Shown here: positions 26,214-37,484 of the stretch, one piece after another
How positions within the stretch are numbered: position 1 is the first letter of the stretch
Layout: each line of letters starts with the position of its first letter
Assembly (NCBI RefSeq): GCF_036880985.1
Contig: NZ_JBAJNO010000008.1
Coordinates: 930,001 to 994,000 of the forward strand
Direction of reading: 5' to 3'
Length of the DNA stretch: 64,000 bases
Source: Limibacter armeniacum
GTDB taxonomy: Bacteria; Bacteroidota; Bacteroidia; Cytophagales; Flammeovirgaceae
The notes under the pieces: model-generated
Databases searched by the model: none
What the model saw: only the letters and a program-made list of their open reading frames with translations
Told to the model about the DNA's origin: nothing
Made by a program: the position numbers and the translations under genes

Positions 26214-26278
26214 AAATTTTTACTAAAAAAATTAGACCGTACTTCTTTTACGTTCTGCGGTTTCAAATTTGTATCACA
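26214..26278 (+). promoter_or_regulatory. Promoter segment of the STM4015-STM4014-HAD operon, duplicated at 29012-29076
   Basis: A 65-bp stretch that aligns without gaps to 29012-29076 at about three quarters of positions, with blocks AAATTTTT, CTAAAAAA, TACTTC, TTTACG and ATTTGTAT identical. It includes CAAATTTG, one base off the TAnnTTTG -7 box, about 44 nt before the STM4015-type start codon. Confidence 0.55.
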
Positions 26279-26313
26279 ATCATAAACATTCACCAGTATT
26301 TAAAATTTTTAGT

Positions 26314-27213
26314 ATGGACTTCAAAAATGTCGCTTTGTTTGATCCTGCAAAAGGGATTGAAAACCCAACACAACCCCAAAAAGTATCCGTTGATTTCGAT
26401 TCTGAAAAGCCATTTTCAGAAGTATTTGATGCTTTCCTGAATGACCCGAAAGTTGGTGAGGTTCGTCAGCTGCATATTGGTCAGTGGTTTGATGAGGTCG
26501 CGGAAGTGTTTAACGAAGTTGTTGATCAGCTTCTTGAAAACAAGGACAAGCTTCAAGGTCTTGAAACGCTGTTTATGGCTGATGTAGATCAGGATGAAGC
26601 TGAGATTTCTTGGATTGAGCAGGAAGATATGGGACCAGTACTAGTGGCTTTCCCTAACCTGAAACACTTTATCGTAAAGGGTAGTAACGGATTGATGTTT
26701 ACAGACCTGAAACATGATAACCTTGAAACACTGATTATCCAGACGGGTGGTTTGGGAAGTGAAACATTTGATCAGGTACTTCAGTCATCTTTACCAAAGC
26801 TGCAAGTATTGGAAATTTGGACTGGAGACAGTAATTACGGTGCTGACATTGAGGCAGTGCAAGTGCGCCCTCTGTTGAAAGGAGACCTGTTCCCAGAACT
26901 GAGAGTGTTAGGTCTGAAGAACAGTGAAATTGCTGATGACATTGCCAAGGAATTGGCAGATGCGCCTGTACTGGAGCAACTGCATACACTTGACGTTTCA
27001 ATGGGTATCATGAAGGATGAAGGTGCTGAATACTTGCTGAACAGTAAGTTGGATCACCTGAAAAAACTGGATGTTTCCAGCAATTACCTTTCTGCTGATA
27101 TGATTCAGAAGATTGCCCAAAAATGGCCTAACCTAGAGCTTATCAGTGGTGGACAGAAATCTCCTGATGAATATCACGGTGAGGTATATTACTATGTGGA
27201 TGTAAGTGAATAG
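26314..27213 (+). CDS. STM4015 family leucine-rich-repeat protein
   Basis: 299 residues from the ATG at 26314. The sequence matches STM4015-family proteins: N-terminal FKNVALFDPAKGIENP, EVRQLHIGQWFDEVAEVF, and leucine-rich units such as LETLIIQTGG, LPKLQVLEIWTG, FPELRVLGLKNSEIADDIAKEL, LHTLDVSMGIMKDEGAEYL and LKKLDVSSNYLSADMIQKI. It is cytoplasmic with no signal peptide. LRRs usually bind proteins, so it may be a scaffold or the substrate of the neighbouring enzymes. First gene of the cluster, 10 bp before the ATP-grasp gene. Confidence 0.9.
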   Translation: MDFKNVALFDPAKGIENPTQPQKVSVDFDSEKPFSEVFDAFLNDPKVGEVRQLHIGQWFDEVAEVFNEVVDQLLENKDKLQGLETLFMADVDQDEAEISWIEQEDMGPVLVAFPNLKHFIVKGSNGLMFTDLKHDNLETLIIQTGGLGSETFDQVLQSSLPKLQVLEIWTGDSNYGADIEAVQVRPLLKGDLFPELRVLGLKNSEIADDIAKELADAPVLEQLHTLDVSMGIMKDEGAEYLLNSKLDHLKKLDVSSNYLSADMIQKIAQKWPNLELISGGQKSPDEYHGEVYYYVDVSE

Positions 27214-27223
27214 TATTGGACTT

Positions 27224-28357
27224 ATGAAAATTGCCATTCTCGGAAACCCCGAAAACAGAAGAGTTCAGCAATTTGCACAGTCCTTTGGAGAGAAAGAACA
27301 CTGCGGTGTTCTTTCTTTTCTGGAAGTATTGGAACACCCTGACCGTTTACCAGAGCTTTTGGCAGGAGTTGATTGCCTCAAGATTGAATCATCGGGTGAA
27401 AACCACGAAGTGTTCCAACAAATCCTTGCTTGGGGAGCCGAGGAGGAAGATAGGATTGTCCAAAACCCCATCAGTAAAGCGGAAGCATTGTCATTACCAT
27501 TTGACATGGGACTTATCCAACATTCCAGACAGTGGTACTTGGGACTGCAAAAGTTTTTGAGGCAAATTGAAAAAGTGGCTGAGCAGCAGCATATTCATTT
27601 GCTGAATACACCAAGAGCAATCTTGCAGATGGCTGATAAGGTTCAGACACACCAGTTGCTGGAAAAAAACGGGATTCCAAAAGTGCCTTATTTAGGGGTA
27701 ATTGAAAACTATGAAGACTTAAGGAACCTGATCAGTGATACTGGTTTTAAACGGTTGTTCCTAAAGCTGGCACACGCTTCTTCTGCTTCCGGAGTAATGG
27801 CTTACCAATGCAAAGGCGAAAAGGAATTACTGATTTCTTCGGCTACACTAGTAGTGGAAAATGGGAAACCTAAAGTGTATAATTCACTGAAGCTGAAAAG
27901 GTACACCAACCATCAGGAGATCAGGATACTGATCGATACTTTGGCGAAACAATACCTGCTGGCAGAAAGGTGGGTGCCCAAAAAAGAATTTGAAGGGGAT
28001 ACGTTTGACTTGCGTTTGGTGTATATCAACCAGGAAGTGGAACATGCTGTGATGCGTTCCAGCAAACAGCCCATGACAAATCTTCATCTAGGAAACAAGC
28101 GAGGCAATCTTGAAAGCCTGAAGCTTAGTTTGGGCACTGAAAAATGGTGTGAAATACAGGAGGTAGTACAGAAAGCAGTAACGGTCTTTGATGGGGCACA
28201 TGTAGCAGGAGTCGATCTTTTGCTTACAGGAAAACACTATAGACCTAAAGTGATAGAGGCCAATGCCTTCGGAGATTTGTTGCCTAACATTGTTAATGCG
28301 AGAGGAGAAAGTACTTATCAATCTCAAATCCGATACCTGAAGAATAATGCCAATTAG
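27224..28357 (+). CDS. STM4014 family ATP-grasp enzyme
   Basis: 377 residues from ATG 27224 (an in-frame GTG at 27206 would overlap the previous gene). The middle and C-terminal parts are ATP-grasp-like: NTPRAILQMADKVQTHQLLEKNGIPKVPYLG, FLKLAHASSASGVMAY, a PKKEFEGDTFDLRLVYIN segment and a final VIEANAFGDLLPNIV that supplies metal ligands. The family is expected to activate a carboxylate as acyl-phosphate and join it to an amine or thiol; the substrate is unknown. The C-terminus overlaps the next gene by 11 bp. Confidence 0.88.
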   Translation: MKIAILGNPENRRVQQFAQSFGEKEHCGVLSFLEVLEHPDRLPELLAGVDCLKIESSGENHEVFQQILAWGAEEEDRIVQNPISKAEALSLPFDMGLIQHSRQWYLGLQKFLRQIEKVAEQQHIHLLNTPRAILQMADKVQTHQLLEKNGIPKVPYLGVIENYEDLRNLISDTGFKRLFLKLAHASSASGVMAYQCKGEKELLISSATLVVENGKPKVYNSLKLKRYTNHQEIRILIDTLAKQYLLAERWVPKKEFEGDTFDLRLVYINQEVEHAVMRSSKQPMTNLHLGNKRGNLESLKLSLGTEKWCEIQEVVQKAVTVFDGAHVAGVDLLLTGKHYRPKVIEANAFGDLLPNIVNARGESTYQSQIRYLKNNAN

Positions 28358-28970
28358 ATGTATACTTTTTGATCTTGACAACACCCTTATTGACCGTGAC
28401 TTTGCCTTTGAAAAATATATGGAGGCAGCTTTTTCTGAAGGGGGAAAGCCCGAAATATGGCAACAGCATAAGGTTACTATATTGGAAAAGGATAACCACG
28501 GCTTCACAAGTAGGAGGGATTTTTTTGACTGGCTGAGAAGGACTTATCAATTGGATGATTCTTTTATGCAATTTTTTGATGGGCATTTGGTCGGCACATA
28601 TACAGCACCATCGTGCAAAGGAATTGTATCAGTTTTGAAGCAGTTATCAGCTTATTACAAGGTTGGCATTTTATCTAATGGAGGAGTTCAGAACCAGCAG
28701 TTGAAATTGAAGCGATCAGGCTTGGGTGATTTTTTTGACTCAAACAACATTTTTATATCAGGAGCCTTGGGCTGTGCCAAGCCTGATCTTCAAATTTTCA
28801 GAAAGGTAGAAAGTCAGTTGGGTTTCAGTTCTGATGCACTATTGATTATTGGGGACGATCCTCAAAATGATATTGAAGGAGGCGAGAAAGCAGGTTGGAG
28901 TACCTGTCATTTTGAGTACCGACAGGGAGCACAGCAGTTACGTCAGAAGGTAGAGGCAACCCTGATTTGA
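28347..28970 (+). CDS. HAD family hydrolase inserted in the STM40xx cluster
   Basis: 207 residues. HAD motif I is LFDLDNTLID (D9 nucleophile, D11 acid), motif II is GILSNGG, the Lys of motif III is in GCAKPD, and motif IV is IIGDDPQNDIEGG. A helical cap between about 17 and 85 makes it subclass I, typical of small-molecule phosphatases. Its start overlaps the STM4014-type stop, indicating translational coupling, so it probably works in the same pathway. It is not among the five STM4011-4015 members as I know them. Confidence 0.9.
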   Translation: MPIRCILFDLDNTLIDRDFAFEKYMEAAFSEGGKPEIWQQHKVTILEKDNHGFTSRRDFFDWLRRTYQLDDSFMQFFDGHLVGTYTAPSCKGIVSVLKQLSAYYKVGILSNGGVQNQQLKLKRSGLGDFFDSNNIFISGALGCAKPDLQIFRKVESQLGFSSDALLIIGDDPQNDIEGGEKAGWSTCHFEYRQGAQQLRQKVEATLI

Positions 28971-29011
28971 CTGCAGAGTTACCTGTATATAATTAATGGT
29001 TAGTTGTAATT

Positions 29012-29076
29012 AAATTTTTTCTAAAAAATTCATACCATACTTCGTTTACGGTTTGCTCGATCATATTTGTATTATA
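29012..29076 (+). promoter_or_regulatory. Promoter segment of the STM4013-STM4012-STM4011 operon, related to 26214-26278
   Basis: See the related segment upstream of the STM4015-type gene. Here the -7-like CATATTTG (29062-29069) is about 180 nt from the start codon, leaving a long leader (29077-29249). That leader holds only tiny frames, the best a 13-codon one at 29106-29147; I see no convincing precursor-peptide gene and no terminator-like hairpin. Confidence 0.55.
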
Positions 29077-29249
29077 TTCAATTCAAACAAATTTTACTTT
29101 TTGATATGAGCTTCGTTTTGAGAAAACCTGAAAGGCGATTTCATTAAAAGATCACGGAGTAATAAATAGAACACAGTGAGGCTGTCACCGTTATTTAGTG
29201 GAAAGAGCGTAATTGAGTATAGAAACCAAAGAAGATAAATACCATTGAG

Positions 29250-30050
29250 ATGAATGCAAACGAGATTGTAGGGAAAAGAAATATCATCATGCTTACGCTG
29301 GATACCCTGCGTTATGATGTAGCTCAACGGCTATGGGAGTCTGGAGAAACGCCCAATTTTAAAAAGCTTTTGCCCAATGGATGGGAGAAAAGGCATACAC
29401 CAGGAAGCTTTACCTATGCGGCACATCATGCATTTTTTGCAGGCTTTTTTCCTACACCTGTTTCATCTCCCAAAGCGCCTAGACTTTTTGCAACACGGTT
29501 TGCCGGGAGCGAAACCTCTACGGATGAAACGTTTCTATTTGACTCACCAACCATTATTGAGGGACTTCAGGAAGAAGGATACAGGACGGCATGCATTGGA
29601 GGGGTGGGATTTTTTAATCGGCAGACACCACTCAGCAATGTATTCCCTTCCCTGTTTATGCAGAGCCATTGGAGTCCTGAACTAGGGGTGACAGCTATTC
29701 ACTCAACCAAGAACCAGTTTGAAAAAGCAAGAGACATATTACTCAGCCCTGCTCAGGAAGAGAGGCACAAGAATGTATTTCTGTTTATCAATGTTTCAGC
29801 TATTCATCAGCCAAATTGCTTCTATCTGGAAGGCGCTGAAAAAGATTCGATTGAATCCCATGCAGCAGCGTTGAAGTATGTAGACAGCCAGTTACCTATC
29901 CTGATGGAGGCTGTAAAGGAACTGGGACCTTCCTGCTGGCTAATGATGGGAGACCATGGAACGGCTTATGGAGAAGATGGCTATGAGGGACACCGTCTGG
30001 CACATGAGGTGGTGTGGACTGTGCCATATGCTGAGATTTTAAACGACTAA
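29250..30050 (+). CDS. STM4013/SEN3800 family hydrolase (alkaline phosphatase superfamily)
   Basis: 266 residues, cytoplasmic. Metal and catalytic positions of the superfamily: D18 in IMLTLDTLRYD, candidate nucleophile S53/T55 in TPGSFTYAAHHAFFAG, and the C-terminal cluster D235-H236 in MMGDHGTAYGEDGYEGHRLAHEVVW with H248 and H252. It is likely to cleave a phosphate or sulfate ester or transfer a phosphoryl group. It is shorter than sulfatases and is known only as part of the STM4011-4015 set. Ten bp before the STM4012-type gene. Confidence 0.88.
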   Translation: MNANEIVGKRNIIMLTLDTLRYDVAQRLWESGETPNFKKLLPNGWEKRHTPGSFTYAAHHAFFAGFFPTPVSSPKAPRLFATRFAGSETSTDETFLFDSPTIIEGLQEEGYRTACIGGVGFFNRQTPLSNVFPSLFMQSHWSPELGVTAIHSTKNQFEKARDILLSPAQEERHKNVFLFINVSAIHQPNCFYLEGAEKDSIESHAAALKYVDSQLPILMEAVKELGPSCWLMMGDHGTAYGEDGYEGHRLAHEVVWTVPYAEILND

Positions 30051-30060
30051 AGACAACCAA

Positions 30061-31383
30061 GTGAGACTTAAAGAACTGATTGAAGACCGCGCTTATTACA
30101 ATGGGTATGCTTATTCGTATCCGCATAAGATGGCTTACAGACCTTTCGCAACACCTAAATCCTTGAAAGCGCTTTGGAAAGATGAGCTTAAGAGAAACTT
30201 GTTTCTTTATGTTCATATTCCTTTCTGCGAAATGAGGTGCGGGTTCTGTAACCTGTTTACTGTAGCCAATCCAAAAGCTGAGATCCAGAATCCTTTCCTG
30301 ACAGCTCTTTTCAGTCAGATGGAAGCAAGCAGGGAGGCATTGGGTGATGACTTTAACTTCTCCAATTTCGCACTTGGTGGAGGAACTCCTACTTACCTCT
30401 CAGCTGAGGAGTTGACATTGCTTTTTGACAGGACAAAGACCTTGTTGAACGTGGATACCAGACAAACCAATTCTGCTATTGAGGTATCTCCCAAGACCAT
30501 TACAGACGACAAGATTGCGTTACTGAAGGAAAGAGGCATGTTCAGGGTAAGTATGGGCGTGCAGAGCATGATCGAAGCCGAAGTGAAAGCTATGGGCAGA
30601 CCGCAAAAGCTGGATGAAGTCAAGAGAGCGATTGAGGCACTGAAAGCGGCTGATTTCCCATTACTGAACTTTGACCTGATCTATGGGGCAGAAAACCAGA
30701 CCAAGGAAAGCTGGCAATACTCTTTGAAGACAATGGTAGACATTGCACCTGAAGAGATTTTCCTTTATCCGCTTTATGTCCGTCCTTTGACAGGGCTTGG
30801 CAAACAAGGCAAGGATTGGGATGATTTCAGGTTTCAGCTGTATCAGCAAGGAAGGGATTTCCTGATGGAGAATGGTTACAGACAGCTCTCGATGCGTCAG
30901 TTCAAGAAAGAAACAGCGCCGGATTTTATGCACCCTGATTACAAGACGCACAAAGACGGCATGATGGGGTTGGGAGCAGGTGCAAGGTCTTATACAGAGT
31001 TTACGCACTACAGCCATGACTATGCTGTAGGTAGCAAAGGGGTGAAGCAGATTATACATAATTACAACCAGTCAACGAAGGCTGACTTTGAGACCGTGAA
31101 ATACGGATTTAACCTCAATCTGGAGGAGAAGAAAAGAAGGTTTGTCATCAAATGTCTTTGTGAGGGAGCCGGTTTATCATATCAGGAATACCAACAGCTT
31201 TTTGGTGAACTTCCAATAGTGGATTTTCCTCAGTTACAGGAATTGATAGACCTGAATCTGGTGGAAGAAAGTACAACCCACTTGCAACTCAATAAGGAAG
31301 GTAAGTCTTTGGAAGATGTAATTGGCCCTTGGCTGTATTCTGAAGCAGTGGAAGAGGCGATGGGTAAATTCGAACTGTCTTAA
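30061..31383 (+). CDS. STM4012 family radical SAM enzyme (HemW/HemN-like)
   Basis: 440 residues from GTG 30061. The [4Fe-4S] motif is HIPFCEMRCGFCNLF (C56, C60, C63), with GGGTPTYLSAEEL and VSMGVQSM segments that place it close to HemW and oxygen-independent coproporphyrinogen oxidases. The C-terminal region (about 340-440) resembles the HemN C-terminal helical domain. Heme synthesis is unlikely because the gene always travels with STM4011-type genes; a modification of a cluster-specific substrate is more likely. Confidence 0.92.
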   Translation: MRLKELIEDRAYYNGYAYSYPHKMAYRPFATPKSLKALWKDELKRNLFLYVHIPFCEMRCGFCNLFTVANPKAEIQNPFLTALFSQMEASREALGDDFNFSNFALGGGTPTYLSAEELTLLFDRTKTLLNVDTRQTNSAIEVSPKTITDDKIALLKERGMFRVSMGVQSMIEAEVKAMGRPQKLDEVKRAIEALKAADFPLLNFDLIYGAENQTKESWQYSLKTMVDIAPEEIFLYPLYVRPLTGLGKQGKDWDDFRFQLYQQGRDFLMENGYRQLSMRQFKKETAPDFMHPDYKTHKDGMMGLGAGARSYTEFTHYSHDYAVGSKGVKQIIHNYNQSTKADFETVKYGFNLNLEEKKRRFVIKCLCEGAGLSYQEYQQLFGELPIVDFPQLQELIDLNLVEESTTHLQLNKEGKSLEDVIGPWLYSEAVEEAMGKFELS

Positions 31384-31397
31384 TAAAGCGAACCAAT

Positions 31398-32243
31398 ATG
31401 AAATGGAATATACTTTATAGGGGACCGCTCTCCAGTTGTAATTATGAGTGCAGCTATTGTCCGTTTGCCAAAACCAAGAATACAAGGGCTGAACTGCTGG
31501 ACGATGAACAAAAACTGCTGAAGTTTGAAGCTTGGGTAAATGCACAGCAACAACACAATATCGGTATCCTCTTTACCCCTTGGGGAGAGGGACTGATCAG
31601 AAAGCATTACCAGCAAGTGATGACTCGCTTAAGCCACCAGCCGATGGTCGATAAGGTAGCGATTCAGACCAACCTTTCTTCCACTTTGGATTGGATGCGT
31701 GAGGTCAATACGGATGCATTTGCCCTTTGGACCACTTTCCACCCAACGCAGATAAGCCTGTCGGCTTATCTGGATCGTTGCGAAAAACTCAATAGCATGG
31801 GGATTAACTACAGCGTAGGGATGGTTGGGTTGAAAGAAGATTTTGAGCTGATTCAGGAGATGAGAGATCGGCTTGCTCCCCACGTTTACCTTTGGGTAAA
31901 TGCCTACAAAAGGGAGGAAGGTTATTATACTGAAGAAGACCTGAATTTCTTGAATAAGATTGATCCTCATTTTCATTTCAATGCAGTCAGGCACCCAAGT
32001 TACGGAGAGGCTTGCAGGGCAGGATATTCTTCCTTTTCAATTGATGGGGATGGAGCAGTGACAAGATGCCATTTTATCAAAAACAAGTTGGGGAATATCT
32101 ACGAGACTCCACTGGAGGAGATGGTTAAAAGAACCCCTTGCAGCAATGATACTTGTGGCTGTTATATTGGCTATATCAATATGGATAAACTGGGACTTGA
32201 CAATGTGTATCAAGGAAAAATCTTGGAACGGATTGCTATTTGA
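31398..32243 (+). CDS. STM4011 family radical SAM enzyme
   Basis: 281 residues. CxxxCxxC at C14, C18, C21 (SSCNYECSYCPF) binds the SAM cluster. The C-terminal third has further cysteines (C206, C224, C248, C253, C255) in a SPASM/Twitch-like arrangement, with SFSIDGDGAVTRCHFIKNKLGNIYE typical of auxiliary-cluster domains in peptide-modifying enzymes. That points to a peptide or protein substrate. It is last in the operon, followed by a terminator. Confidence 0.92.
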   Translation: MKWNILYRGPLSSCNYECSYCPFAKTKNTRAELLDDEQKLLKFEAWVNAQQQHNIGILFTPWGEGLIRKHYQQVMTRLSHQPMVDKVAIQTNLSSTLDWMREVNTDAFALWTTFHPTQISLSAYLDRCEKLNSMGINYSVGMVGLKEDFELIQEMRDRLAPHVYLWVNAYKREEGYYTEEDLNFLNKIDPHFHFNAVRHPSYGEACRAGYSSFSIDGDGAVTRCHFIKNKLGNIYETPLEEMVKRTPCSNDTCGCYIGYINMDKLGLDNVYQGKILERIAI

Positions 32244-32297
32244 TTGCATATCGATCATTTAACCTAGTTTTAATAAGGCTTTTCTTAAACGCTATCT

Positions 32298-32330
32298 GGT
32301 CGCTCCTTCTTTAGGGGAGCGGCCTTATTT
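32298..32330 (+). terminator. Terminator of the STM4013-4012-4011 operon
   Basis: Nine-bp stem GGTCGCTCC/GGAGCGGCC with one wobble pair (32298-32306 with 32316-32324), then TTATTTG. Confidence 0.7.
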
Positions 32331-32952: not shown

Positions 32953-33113
32953 ATCAGCTATCGTCACATTTTATCAGGTAGGTTTTCAATACTGAGTACT
33001 CATTTTTCAGGGGCATTATATGCTTGTCCTGAAGGTTTGAGGTAGCTTATGGTATTGGAGTATCCTGTCCTGAGGTGACATTTTTTATTGTCTCAACAAG
33101 AAACTGGCTAATT

Positions 33114-36100
33114 ATGATTAATCAGATTATATCATTCTCCATCCATAACAAATTGATTGTGGGACTGCTGACGCTTACCCTGATCGTTGGTGGGATTTGG
33201 AGTATGACCAAGGTACCGCTGGATGCGGTGCCAGATATTACCAATAACCAAGTACAGGTGATTACACAGGCACCTAATCTGGGAACAGAAGACATTGAGC
33301 AGTTCGTGACTTACCCTGTAGAAGTTGCGATGGCAAACCTTCCAGGTGTAGTGGAAATTCGCTCTATTTCCCGATTCGGACTATCAGTAGTCACAATTGT
33401 TTTTGAAGACGAAATGGGGACTTATTTACCCCGTCAATTGGTATCGGAAAAGTTAACCGAAGTCAAGGAGGAAATCCCTCAAGGATTTGGTGTGCCTTCT
33501 ATGGGCCCTATCTCAACAGGACTAGGTGAAATCTACCAATATACATTGAAAGTAGATGATGCCCATAAGGGACAATATACTGCTACTGACCTGCGAACCA
33601 TGCAGGATTGGATTGTACGTAGGCAGATGTCAATGGTGTCGGGTGTTGTGGAAATTAATGCGATTGGTGGCAGTATCAAGCAGTATGAGGTAGCTGTATC
33701 CCCTGATGAGCTGAAGGCGATCGGACTCACTATTTCCGACATTTTCAATGCCTTGGAAAGCAATAACCAGAATACAGGCGGAGCTTATATTGAAAAGGAT
33801 CATTACGCCAATTTTATAAGGGGTGAAGGGTTGGCTCGAAGCCTTGATGATATCAGAAATATCGTGGTAGACAATGTGAATGGCTTGCCAATACGTGTGG
33901 GAGATGTAGCACAGGTACGTTACGGTTCGGCTATTCGCTATGGAGCACTTACGCAGGATGGAGAAGGTGAAGTGGTAGGCGGACTGGTTATGATGCTGAA
34001 GGGGGCTAACTCCAATGACGTGATTGAAAGAGTAAAGCAACGCATGGATGAAATTCAGGAGTCTTTGCCTGAAGGGGTAGTTATTGAACCGTTGCTTGAC
34101 AGAAGTAAGCTGATTGCCCAAACTACGGATACTGTGAGCAGTAACCTGATGGAGGGTGCCTTGATTGTGATCTTTGTCTTGGTTTTTCTGTTGGGAAACT
34201 GGCGTGGAGGTTTGATTGTCGCTTCTACTATTCCTTTGTCTTTGCTGTTTGCCTTTATCATGATGCACGTCTTTGATGTATGGGCAAACCTGATGAGTTT
34301 GGGGGCTATCGACTTTGGTATTATCGTGGATGGTGCTGTGATTATCGTCGAGGGGACTGTATTTCTGTTGCACAATAAAGTGTTGAAGAAAAAGCCTTTG
34401 ACGGCTGCACTCAGGGATGAAACAGCTTTTGAAGCATCAAGTAAGATGATGAACGCAGCATTCTTTGGGCAGCTGATCGTGCTGATTGTGTTTATTCCTA
34501 TTCTTGCACTGCAAGGTGTAGAAGGGAAGATGTTCCAACCAATGGCGCTTACCTTTATGTTTGCCATGCTTGGAGTGATGCTGCTTTGCCTGACATATGT
34601 ACCAATGATGTCAGCCTTATTTATCAGGATTGGTCAAACAGAAAAAACATATTGGGGTGATCGTTTTGTGAATTGGTTGGAGCGTATCTATGAACCAGCT
34701 TTGGGTAAGGCGCTTGCAAATGCCAAATGGGTGGTAGGAATAGCAGTCCTATTGTTAGGGTTGTCGGTCTTTTCCTTTTTCCGAATGGGAGGGGAGTTTA
34801 TCCCTCAACTAGATGAAGGGGATATTGCATTTCATGCCATTCTAACGCCGGGAAGTTCACTGACAGAAACTATCGAGACAACAACCAAAATTGAGAAACT
34901 GGTTAAGGAGAATTTTCCTGAAGTGGAGAAAATTGTCAGTAGGATAGGAGTGGCAGAGGTGCCTACTGACCCTATGCCGATGGACATTGCTGATGTGATT
35001 GTCATTATGAAGCCAAAATCCGAATGGGTGTCGGCAAGTAGTAAGGACGAGCTTTTGGAGTTGATGAAAGAAAAGTTGGAGCAGGTCCCTGGTGTAAACT
35101 ACGAATTTACACAGCCTATCGAAATGCGTTTCAATGAGTTGCTTGAAGGGGTAAGAGAAGATATCGCGATCAAACTGTATGGGGAGGATATCAATATGCT
35201 GGCAAGTAAGGCAGAGGAGGTTTCCAAGATAATTGCCGGTACCAACGGGATCGGTGATATGCGGGTGGAGGCTACCACAGGCTTACCCCAAATGACTGTC
35301 CGGTACAATAGGCACAAGTTGGCTCAATATGGATTGAATGTCGAAGACCTGAATACAGTTATAGAAACGGCTTTTGCTGGAGGAAAAGCAGGAGTCATTT
35401 TCGAAGGGGAAAAACGTTTTGATTTGGTGGTAAGGTTAAATGAGCGTTATCGCCAAAGCATCGACAACCTGAAAAACCTTTACGTCAACAGACCTGATGG
35501 GGCACAGATTCCGCTGAAGGAAGTAGCGGATATCAGTTATCAACCTGGTCCAATGCAGATCAGTAGAGACAATACCAATAGAAGAACCTATGTCGGGATT
35601 AACGTTAGAGGACGTGATATCAAATCGTTGGTGACGGAAATTCAACAGAAACTGGATGAAAAGTTGGTCTTGCCACCGGGTTACTATATCCGTTATGGAG
35701 GTGCGTTTGAGAACCTTGAACGGGCAAGTAAAAGGTTACAGGTGGTTGTGCCTATTGCGCTAGGACTGATCTTTATCCTGATATTCTTTGCCTTGAAATC
35801 CCTAAAGCAAACAGCCATGATTTATATCGCTGTGCCAATGGCCGCCATCGGTGGTGTTTTCTCCCTTTGGTTAAGGGGAATGCCTTTCAGTATTTCGGCG
35901 GGTGTAGGCTTTATCGTGCTTTTTGGTGTGGCTGTACTGAATGGATTGGTACTGATTAGCAGCTGGAATGAGTTGAAGGAAGAAGGGGTGACCGATCTCA
36001 ATGAAAGAATACGTTTGGGGGGCAGAAGAAGGATAAGACCTATTTTGTTGACAGCCTTGACAGACGTACTGGGCTTTTTGCCGATGGCAATCTCTACTTC

Positions 36101-37484
36101 AGCTGGGGCTGAGGTACAACAGCCTTTAGCAACGGTAGTAATTGGTGGAATGCTTTCCGCAACAATGCTCACCTTATTTGTATTGCCGATACTTTATCAG
36201 TGGATGGAGTCCAGAGATACAGCCATCAGTCTACCTAAAACGACAGCGGTGATACTGTTGGTGGGAAGTTATATCATTTTTCCTGCTGGAAAGGCGAATG
36301 CGCAAGAAGTACAGCCTAGGGTAGTGAATACAGTTGACGAAGCCATTAGTTTGGGATTAGCCAATAATGGAGATGTTCGGGTAGCGGAAATACAGGTGAA
36401 GGTGCAGGAAGAACGAGAAAAGGCAGCTTTCAACCCTAAGAAAACAGATATCGGAGTTCAGTATGGACAGTACAATAGTTTTGAGAATGACTTTGCATTC
36501 AGTGTTTCCCAAAACTTTGCATTCCCGACGGTTTACTCGAAACAACGGAAACTCGCAGAAGCCAATACCGAGGGCAGTCGTAAGCAGTTGGCAGTTCAGG
36601 CTAATACCTTGAAGCGAGACATTCGACAGCATTGGTATCAGTTGGCTTACCTGTATGAAAGGCAAAGGCTCTTATTGTATCAGGACTCACTTTACAATAG
36701 GTTTTTGCATGCCGCTACAGTGCGGTATGAGACAGAAGCGACTAATTACCTCGAAAAGTCAGCAGCAGAAACGAGCGTGATGGAAATCCAGAATATGGAG
36801 AAGGTGGTAGCTGCTGATATTGCCATTCAGGAAAGGCAATTACAGGTGTTGTTGAATGATATGGAAGGGCTTCATTTCCGTCCGGATACCTTGAAGGAAA
36901 TCAAGTTAGATCAGGGGTTGATCAGCCGTGCGGTTTCAGAAAACCCTTCTTTGGTATATGCAGAGCAGCAAGTCCAGATTGCAGCTGCTGAGAAATCAGT
37001 GGAGTCTTCCAAGCTGCTGCCTGACCTTTCCATCGGGTATTATAACCAGTCATTGATTGGTACACCTACGGCAGATGGAAATGTTGCAGGAGGCTCAGAT
37101 AGGTTCAACAGTGTGCAGGCAGGGATATCTATCCCATTGTTTTTTGGCTCTTACAAGTCTGGTGTAAATGCTGCTAAACTGAAAACACAGATGGCAGAAG
37201 TACAGACAGACTATTACCGGAATGTTTTGAAAGGACAGTATGAACAGCAGATGTCGGAGGTCGCCAAATATCAGGAAAGCCTGAAATACTACAAGGGACA
37301 AGCCCTTCCACAATCAGAGCGAATCATTGACAATGCACAAAAAAGCTTTGAGCATGGTGCGATTGGCTATATCGAATACTTCCAGAACATCAACTACGCT
37401 TTGGTGCTCAAATTCAATTATCTCAAGACCTTAAACGACAGTAATCAGGCAGCTATTCAGCTTGAATACCTGATCGGACAATAA
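33114..37484 (+). CDS. CusA/CzcA-type heavy-metal RND pump fused to a TolC-like outer-membrane factor
   Basis: 1456 residues from ATG 33114. Residues 1 to about 1040 are a complete heavy-metal RND pump: 12 membrane helices, LTLIVGGIWSMTKVPLDAVPDITNNQVQV, and the proton-relay sequence AIDFGIIVDGAVIIVEGTVF in TM4 with its Asp and Glu residues. From about 1060 a TolC/OMF domain follows, starting with an internal hydrophobic stretch (ILLVGSYIIFPAGKANAQ) that resembles its own signal peptide, then EAISLGLANNGDVRVAEIQV and long helical repeats. This fused form is common in Bacteroidota. It should export Cu, Zn, Co or Cd; the metal is not evident. The adaptor follows 11 bp downstream. Confidence 0.95.
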   Translation: MINQIISFSIHNKLIVGLLTLTLIVGGIWSMTKVPLDAVPDITNNQVQVITQAPNLGTEDIEQFVTYPVEVAMANLPGVVEIRSISRFGLSVVTIVFEDEMGTYLPRQLVSEKLTEVKEEIPQGFGVPSMGPISTGLGEIYQYTLKVDDAHKGQYTATDLRTMQDWIVRRQMSMVSGVVEINAIGGSIKQYEVAVSPDELKAIGLTISDIFNALESNNQNTGGAYIEKDHYANFIRGEGLARSLDDIRNIVVDNVNGLPIRVGDVAQVRYGSAIRYGALTQDGEGEVVGGLVMMLKGANSNDVIERVKQRMDEIQESLPEGVVIEPLLDRSKLIAQTTDTVSSNLMEGALIVIFVLVFLLGNWRGGLIVASTIPLSLLFAFIMMHVFDVWANLMSLGAIDFGIIVDGAVIIVEGTVFLLHNKVLKKKPLTAALRDETAFEASSKMMNAAFFGQLIVLIVFIPILALQGVEGKMFQPMALTFMFAMLGVMLLCLTYVPMMSALFIRIGQTEKTYWGDRFVNWLERIYEPALGKALANAKWVVGIAVLLLGLSVFSFFRMGGEFIPQLDEGDIAFHAILTPGSSLTETIETTTKIEKLVKENFPEVEKIVSRIGVAEVPTDPMPMDIADVIVIMKPKSEWVSASSKDELLELMKEKLEQVPGVNYEFTQPIEMRFNELLEGVREDIAIKLYGEDINMLASKAEEVSKIIAGTNGIGDMRVEATTGLPQMTVRYNRHKLAQYGLNVEDLNTVIETAFAGGKAGVIFEGEKRFDLVVRLNERYRQSIDNLKNLYVNRPDGAQIPLKEVADISYQPGPMQISRDNTNRRTYVGINVRGRDIKSLVTEIQQKLDEKLVLPPGYYIRYGGAFENLERASKRLQVVVPIALGLIFILIFFALKSLKQTAMIYIAVPMAAIGGVFSLWLRGMPFSISAGVGFIVLFGVAVLNGLVLISSWNELKEEGVTDLNERIRLGGRRRIRPILLTALTDVLGFLPMAISTSAGAEVQQPLATVVIGGMLSATMLTLFVLPILYQWMESRDTAISLPKTTAVILLVGSYIIFPAGKANAQEVQPRVVNTVDEAISLGLANNGDVRVAEIQVKVQEEREKAAFNPKKTDIGVQYGQYNSFENDFAFSVSQNFAFPTVYSKQRKLAEANTEGSRKQLAVQANTLKRDIRQHWYQLAYLYERQRLLLYQDSLYNRFLHAATVRYETEATNYLEKSAAETSVMEIQNMEKVVAADIAIQERQLQVLLNDMEGLHFRPDTLKEIKLDQGLISRAVSENPSLVYAEQQVQIAAAEKSVESSKLLPDLSIGYYNQSLIGTPTADGNVAGGSDRFNSVQAGISIPLFFGSYKSGVNAAKLKTQMAEVQTDYYRNVLKGQYEQQMSEVAKYQESLKYYKGQALPQSERIIDNAQKSFEHGAIGYIEYFQNINYALVLKFNYLKTLNDSNQAAIQLEYLIGQ

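Follow-up and report, generated by a model that had tools for sequence, protein, structure and literature searches.

A widespread radical SAM and ATP-grasp gene cassette in Limibacter armeniacum with a conserved C-terminal glutamate and a possible link to DNA damage

In this study, we analysed a 64,000-nucleotide stretch of the Limibacter armeniacum genome (contig NZ_JBAJNO010000008.1, positions 930,001 to 994,000; hereafter the window), in which six intact genes encode, in series, members of the STM4015, STM4014, HAD, STM4013, STM4012 and STM4011 families (26314-32243, + strand). The cassette is real and conserved, and no published function for it was found in the literature searched. Its leucine-rich repeat (LRR) protein, STM4015, ends in glutamate in almost all copies and is encoded beside STM4014, an ATP-grasp ligase with a predicted RimK/LysX-type fold. 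From this pairing of a ligase of the RimK/LysX branch with a protein ending in an invariant Glu we infer the core of our proposal, a stress pathway, probably inducible by DNA damage, whose target would be the terminal Glu of an LRR protein serving as carrier or substrate, and in which two radical S-adenosylmethionine (SAM) enzymes would carry out tailoring steps. We give this reading about even credence.

The C-terminal glutamate of STM4015 and its neighbouring ligase

At least 574 stretches encoding STM4011 relatives were present among 84,980 species genomes; the best 80, together with plasmid records and the window, gave the 90 loci compared here. The last residue of STM4015 is Glu in 82 of 84 complete cassette copies, and the other five cassette families have no fixed last residue. 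In a 60-sequence STM4015 alignment, E299 of the window protein is among eight invariant columns. The tail, with the consensus [RYW][YF][VI]x[VIL][GSAT]E, comes after an acidic linker of low conservation; it contains neither Cys nor a further invariant residue. A further sample of STM4015 gave a terminal Glu in 49 of 51 complete copies, the exceptions being one Herpetosiphon copy seen twice, and all Streptomycetaceae copies that were read end in Glu. For the Gemmatales (L175-L187), STM4014 was searched for and the protein encoded just upstream was then read. Most of these proteins reach no more than 83-131 bits with the profile of STM4015; the LRR body has diverged, and some have WGR-like N-termini. 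Their tail is mostly [EQM]GDxE (EGDYE versus RYVAVGE elsewhere), yet the terminal Glu is kept in 12 of 13.

Both glutamate codons are used (GAG 43, GAA 39) and 57 of the 58 copies without an overlapping start codon still end in Glu; therefore, selection acts on the residue itself, and an artefact of translational coupling is ruled out. Several genomes carry multiple STM4015 copies, in tandem or far from the ligase gene (L082, L085, L087, L092, L099, L106, L115 and L117), most of which retain the terminal Glu, as though a single ligase acted on more than one carrier.

By sequence, the nearest families of STM4014 are CofF, RimK, MptN and LysX. The nearest structures of its AlphaFold 2 (AF2) model are nine entries of ArgX with LysW, LysX, RimK and RimK with RpsF at Z 22.6-24.6 (3vpb 24.6 and 3vpd 24.4 for LysX/ArgX; 7qys 24.4 and 5zk6 24.3 for RimK/RpsF), followed by glutathione synthetase as the next structural class (Z 21.5). 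The ATP-grasp residues K139, K181, D331, E345 and N347 are conserved, and together with the modelled fold they place STM4014 among the RimK/LysX-type ligases. ArgX/LysX and RimK ligate onto the C-terminal Glu of proteins. In the case of LysX, the carrier LysW receives the substrate on the gamma-carboxyl of its C-terminal Glu (PMC10433800). Because the terminal Glu is so rarely missing, the closest ligase structures are those of ArgX, LysX and RimK, and STM4015 lies directly 5' of STM4014 in 68 of 71 loci, the terminal Glu of STM4015 is, by analogy, the likely ligation site.

The cassette shares with the LysW/LysX-ArgX carrier system an ATP-grasp ligase of one branch and a carrier-like protein ending in Glu, which is essential in LysW (EDWGE; PMC10433800). 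However, LysW is a small Zn-binding protein with conserved Cys, whereas STM4015 is an LRR protein of about 300 residues without conserved Cys, and the kinase, reductase and aminotransferase partners of LysW contrast with the radical SAM, alkaline-phosphatase-superfamily and HAD partners in the cassette. STM4015 may work like LysW, but it is no LysW. With RimK/RpsF the cassette has in common the ligase branch and, by prediction, modification at a protein C-terminus; it differs in that the target is not ribosomal, the ligase gene is paired with that of its own putative target, and radical SAM partners are present. A preliminary description of this DNA had proposed that the LRR protein serves as substrate or scaffold. 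Since its conserved terminal Glu adjoins a RimK/LysX-like ligase, this fits best.

Promoter sequences and other possible links to DNA damage

The 23-bp element ACCnTACTTCnTTTACGnTnTGC, whose pattern was built from the two window copies themselves (26236 and 29034), occurs at exactly two places in the window, one before each of two probable transcription units, with none expected in shuffles. In the whole genome (8.0 Mb), it was found at eight places with up to two mismatches and at 16 with up to three, versus four for the reversed control. The genes 3' of the element include recA, a WGR-PARP gene (Pfam PARP 1.7e-24), two DUF4132-DUF7737 operons, a DUF5724 gene, and a DUF2201 vWA gene with a MoxR-like ATPase gene after it; a C5 DNA methylase gene lies 472 bp away from its site, and no gene is near one of the sites with a single mismatch (L215). 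Many of the sites are followed by a sequence like the -7 box of Bacteroidota. Sites outside the window are on contigs C9, C3 and C4 (L215-L224). A diverged copy of the element lies 5' of STM4015 in two Flammeovirga loci. As the element is common to recA and PARP, it points to DNA-damage control, and it is a candidate mark of a new recA-PARP regulon in this Flammeovirga relative.

In the Streptomycetaceae, the pattern TTGTC[AG]GTG..TTGGTAGAACT precedes STM4015 in 30 of 30 loci with small departures (up to two from its 5' half) and has no other occurrence in these loci (231 kb over both strands). This box (TTGTCRGTG-N8-TA, at the correct spacing) fits the UV-inducible recA promoter of Streptomyces rimosus, given as TTGTCAGTGGCN6TAGggT where it is cited in PMC2375139, and the mycobacterial damage promoter tTGTCRgtg-8-TannnT (PMC5656591), except that its -10 part reads TAGAAC. 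RecA-NDp promoters lie 5' of damage genes in Streptomyces (PMC5087735); according to one study, the mycobacterial motif is not conserved in S. venezuelae (PMC9380542). In the same study, the S. venezuelae radical SAM gene vnz_31145, which might or might not encode STM4011 or STM4012, has a LexA site and is induced about 20-fold by mitomycin C (PMC9380542). Thus, promoter sequence and spacing in all 30 loci agree with the actinobacterial RecA-NDp/PafBC regulon, but no report was found that lists the cassette in this regulon, and the suggested PafBC link comes from sequence. A divergent second recA-type box 5' of STM4015 was also sought in the Streptomycetaceae and dismissed, with short half-sites in 16 of the 30 loci and no full box. 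Myxococcus, Xanthomonas and Cyanobacteria boxes, too, were tried before the operon and were not enriched.

A further link is provided by domain fusions. A WGR domain, which is a domain of PARPs, is present in 19 of 68 STM4015 proteins, and in one STM4015 a BRCT domain lies next to the LRR region or inside it.

Gene content, spread and enzymes of the cassette

The features of the window are listed in the table below. All five STM families score over the curated NCBIfam cut-offs (STM4015 275, STM4014 175, STM4013 250, STM4012 380 and STM4011 200 bits), with their genes side by side. This agrees with the preliminary description, which had named six genes in series and a family without published function. 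NCBIfam gives STM4011 to STM4015 names but no function; the entries are hypothetical equivalogs, a subfamily and an equivalog by locus name. Transcription is probably in two units (26314-28970 and 29250-32243, 279 bp apart) rather than one. No structured RNA was found, and PADLOC gave no convincing match to an anti-phage defence family.

Features of the STM4011-STM4015 cassette in the window
Feature	Position	Strand	Basis or remark
Promoter element ACCGTACTTCTTTTACGTTCTGC before unit 1 (STM4015-STM4014-HAD), followed by a Bacteroidota -7-box-like sequence	26236..26258	+	Pattern match
STM4015-family LRR protein, predicted carrier or substrate	26314..27213	+	NF038076, 298.9 bits; AF2 predicted local distance difference test (pLDDT) 95; structure of a family member, 2RA8
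Conserved C-terminal tail YYVDVSE-COOH of STM4015	27190..27210	+	Glu299 codon GAA at 27208-27210, predicted ligation site
STM4014-family RimK/LysX-like ATP-grasp ligase	27224..28357	+	NF038074, 333.3 bits; AF2 pLDDT 97
HAD-IA hydrolase (generic), recurrent cassette member	28347..28970	+	Pfam Hydrolase/HAD_2
Second copy of the promoter element, before unit 2 (STM4013-STM4012-STM4011)	29034..29056	+	Pattern match
STM4013-family alkaline-phosphatase-superfamily hydrolase	29250..30050	+	NF038075, 386.3 bits
STM4012-family HemN/HemW-like radical SAM protein	30061..31383	+	NF006067, 543.5 bits; GTG start; C56/C60/C63
STM4011-family radical SAM protein, SPASM/Twitch-like C-terminus	31398..32243	+	NF038073, 380.6 bits
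Terminator-like hairpin 3' of STM4011, 11-bp stem	32298..32324	+	Pattern scan; weak, scan total near chance

A comparison of neighbourhoods over phyla, which the preliminary description had suggested, was run and confirmed co-conservation. Besides the STM4015-STM4014 pair, STM4013, STM4012 and STM4011 are contiguous in this order in 74 of 80 loci. The HAD gene had been taken for an addition; instead, it recurs in 29 of the 90 loci and in all 29 lies directly upstream of STM4013. The arrangement of the two blocks, STM4015-STM4014 and [HAD-]STM4013-STM4012-STM4011, relative to each other varies between loci in both order and orientation. In 19 genomes, picked mostly for the pair being missing near STM4011, matches to STM4015 (some of them weak) were found in 18 and to STM4014 in 18, and the strong matches are usually neighbours, away from the STM4011 locus. 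Among 298 mutually related Streptomycetaceae genomes, 144 have both STM4015 and STM4011, 145 have neither and nine have one only, and the cassette is thus present in about half of the sample. The interpretation in the preliminary description was partly borne out (co-conservation, the lack of a precursor, the likely role of the LRR protein), although the HAD gene is no addition, and the invariant C-terminal Glu, the two-module layout and the promoter element common to recA and PARP had been overlooked.

The cassette is found in Bacteroidota, Verrucomicrobiota, Planctomycetota, Myxococcota, Actinomycetota, Cyanobacteriota, Chloroflexota, Deinococcota, Pseudomonadota and Bacillota. It is rare in the phylum of the window, with one full-length match among 395 sampled genomes besides its own and a copy in one of 17 close relatives, and megablast detected no copy in E. 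coli. A phage or plasmid element was considered and rejected, as only 13 plasmid and two phage records match, some of them seemingly host DNA. One record labelled as a Salmonella plasmid (L013, NZ_LN868945.1) carries cassette genes amid the core genes typA, glnA, glnG and hemN and looks chromosomal; a 5.9-kb record labelled as a Salmonella phage (H14, OR850900.1) carries cassette genes and may be host DNA.

Several variants were noticed in the course of the comparison. Other HAD proteins recur, such as a Cof-type HAD encoded 3' of STM4011 in Salmonella. In a Bacteroides finegoldii plasmid record (L012, 7575-9533), only remnants of STM4013 and STM4012 are left, and STM4011 carries a fused HAD-like domain that is Cof-type by its motif. 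A gene pair encoding an LRR-like DUF6745 protein, so identified from record annotations, and a protein of about 100-130 aa adjoins the cassette in 19 loci from several phyla (L007, L008, L010, L015 and others). DUF6745 as an obligate partner was not upheld: the window genome gave no match, but the search gave none in control genomes either, so that absence is unproven. Downstream of the cassette, a single gene (33075-37484) encodes, as read from the sequence, a 1469-aa resistance-nodulation-division (RND)-type efflux pump apparently fused to a TolC-like outer-membrane part.

The enzymes retain the residues expected of their families. In STM4011, the three radical SAM Cys (CxxxCxxC) and five further Cys (C206, C224, C248, C253 and C255) are conserved in essentially all 90 aligned homologues. 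The extra Cys, to which the preliminary description had drawn attention, hence stand, and the SPASM/Twitch likeness that it proposed holds in part. With the SPASM pattern taken as CX9-15GX4C, then CX2CX5CX3C and a final C, the arrangement C206-X12-G219-X4-C224 matches the first half and Pfam SPASM scores 25.4 bits (cut-off 21.5), but the second half reads C-X4-C-X-C and is not the full motif. STM4011 resembles SPASM/Twitch maturases of ribosomally synthesized and post-translationally modified peptides (RiPPs) in its CxxxCxxC motif, its conserved C-terminal Cys and a profile match to the C-terminal region of SkfB; it differs in this incomplete C-terminal pattern and in that the cassette has no short precursor. 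The radical SAM Cys of STM4012 are conserved in 83 sequences. In STM4013, D18, T55, D235, H236 and H248 are conserved, as expected for the alkaline-phosphatase superfamily with a Thr nucleophile, and by motif position Thr55 would be this nucleophile. The catalytic residues D9, D11, K145, D170 and D175 of the HAD protein are conserved in 29 homologues.

Proposed pathway, alternatives and meaning

In the proposed pathway, STM4014 would first use ATP to activate a carboxylate of the terminal Glu in STM4015 and would join an amine to it (an amino acid or an amino compound), as LysX/ArgX do on LysW and RimK on ribosomal protein S6. Judged by their families, STM4011 and STM4012 would then alter this attached group or the tail next to it, and STM4013 and the HAD protein would act on phospho- or sulfo-esters of the attached group. 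Finally, the product would leave the LRR protein, or it would stay there and make up the working form of that protein. The promoters predict that both operons are induced together with recA. It is tempting to go further, tentatively, and to suggest a widespread and hitherto uncharacterised response to DNA damage. Here the terminal Glu of an LRR carrier, often one with a fused WGR or BRCT damage-response domain, would be the place where a group tailored by radical SAM enzymes is assembled or presented, and this carrier-protein biosynthesis would serve to protect the genome or to signal damage.

Several observations weigh against the proposed pathway. Two of the 84 STM4015 copies and one Gemmatales neighbour (L187, ending DADDS) lack the Glu. 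STM4015 has no recognisable sequence or fold likeness to LysW or S6. Its tail (residues 291-299) has a mean pLDDT of 96 in the AlphaFold model, and the alignment with crystal structure 2RA8 from Bacteroides fragilis (Z 31.8) reaches the last residue; the modelled tail thus probably lies against the LRR and in this differs from a carrier arm that is free. The roles given to STM4011, STM4012, STM4013 and the HAD protein are those that family membership suggests. Before the operon in other phyla, neither LexA boxes (phylum-specific consensus; zero to two matches per box, near expectation) nor the Deinococcus RDRM damage motif were enriched, and for this reason sequence supports damage control in two lineages only, plus the domain fusions.

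Alternatively, the LRR protein could be the end product, with its tail (RYVAVGE) modified in place by the radical SAM enzymes in the manner of a RiPP core, and with STM4014 capping or extending the terminus as RimK does on S6. Conservation of tail positions -3, -5, -6 and -7 would suit this explanation, as would the resemblance of the SPASM/Twitch-like STM4011 to the sactipeptide maturase SkfB and an LRR body strongly conserved at W/Y/F/H/R columns, which suggests a function of its own. However, the Gemmatales have changed these tail residues and kept the terminal Glu, so that Y and V are not required substrates there, and the tail offers neither Cys nor another invariant residue. We consider this explanation unlikely.

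More doubtful still is a structural tail that docks on the LRR, with the Glu needed for folding or partner binding, STM4015 serving as adaptor or inhibitor and STM4014 acting on a small molecule. The confidently modelled tail, the reach of the 2RA8 alignment and the ribonuclease-inhibitor-type LRR fold all agree with it. Yet a structural residue would tolerate C-terminal extensions, and almost no copy passes the Glu, which moreover persists with a different tail sequence in the Gemmatales. In 2RA8, the family match ends ITE at residue 354 of 362, the last eight residues presumably being a purification tag; crystals were nevertheless obtained. An ordinary RiPP or graspetide cluster with a missed short precursor is very improbable: pairs of ATP-grasp and SPASM radical SAM proteins are known in graspetide clusters (PMC8939145), but no convincing precursor-peptide open reading frame is present in the 279-bp gap of the window, as the preliminary description had noted for the gaps, related loci (L017 and L024, for example) have abutting or overlapping genes, and it is the LRR gene that occupies the ligase-adjacent place.

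The proposal of a damage-inducible pathway on the terminal Glu of STM4015 concerns a cassette that spans many phyla and about half of the sampled Streptomycetaceae, yet carries only placeholder names. The terminal Glu designates an exact residue, the ligase a reaction type and the promoters an inducing condition, which together would give this widespread gene set its first testable role. If the proposal is true, bacterial stress biology would gain a C-terminal protein modification, or a biosynthesis on a carrier, that is induced by damage, and a new use for paired radical SAM enzymes would come to light.

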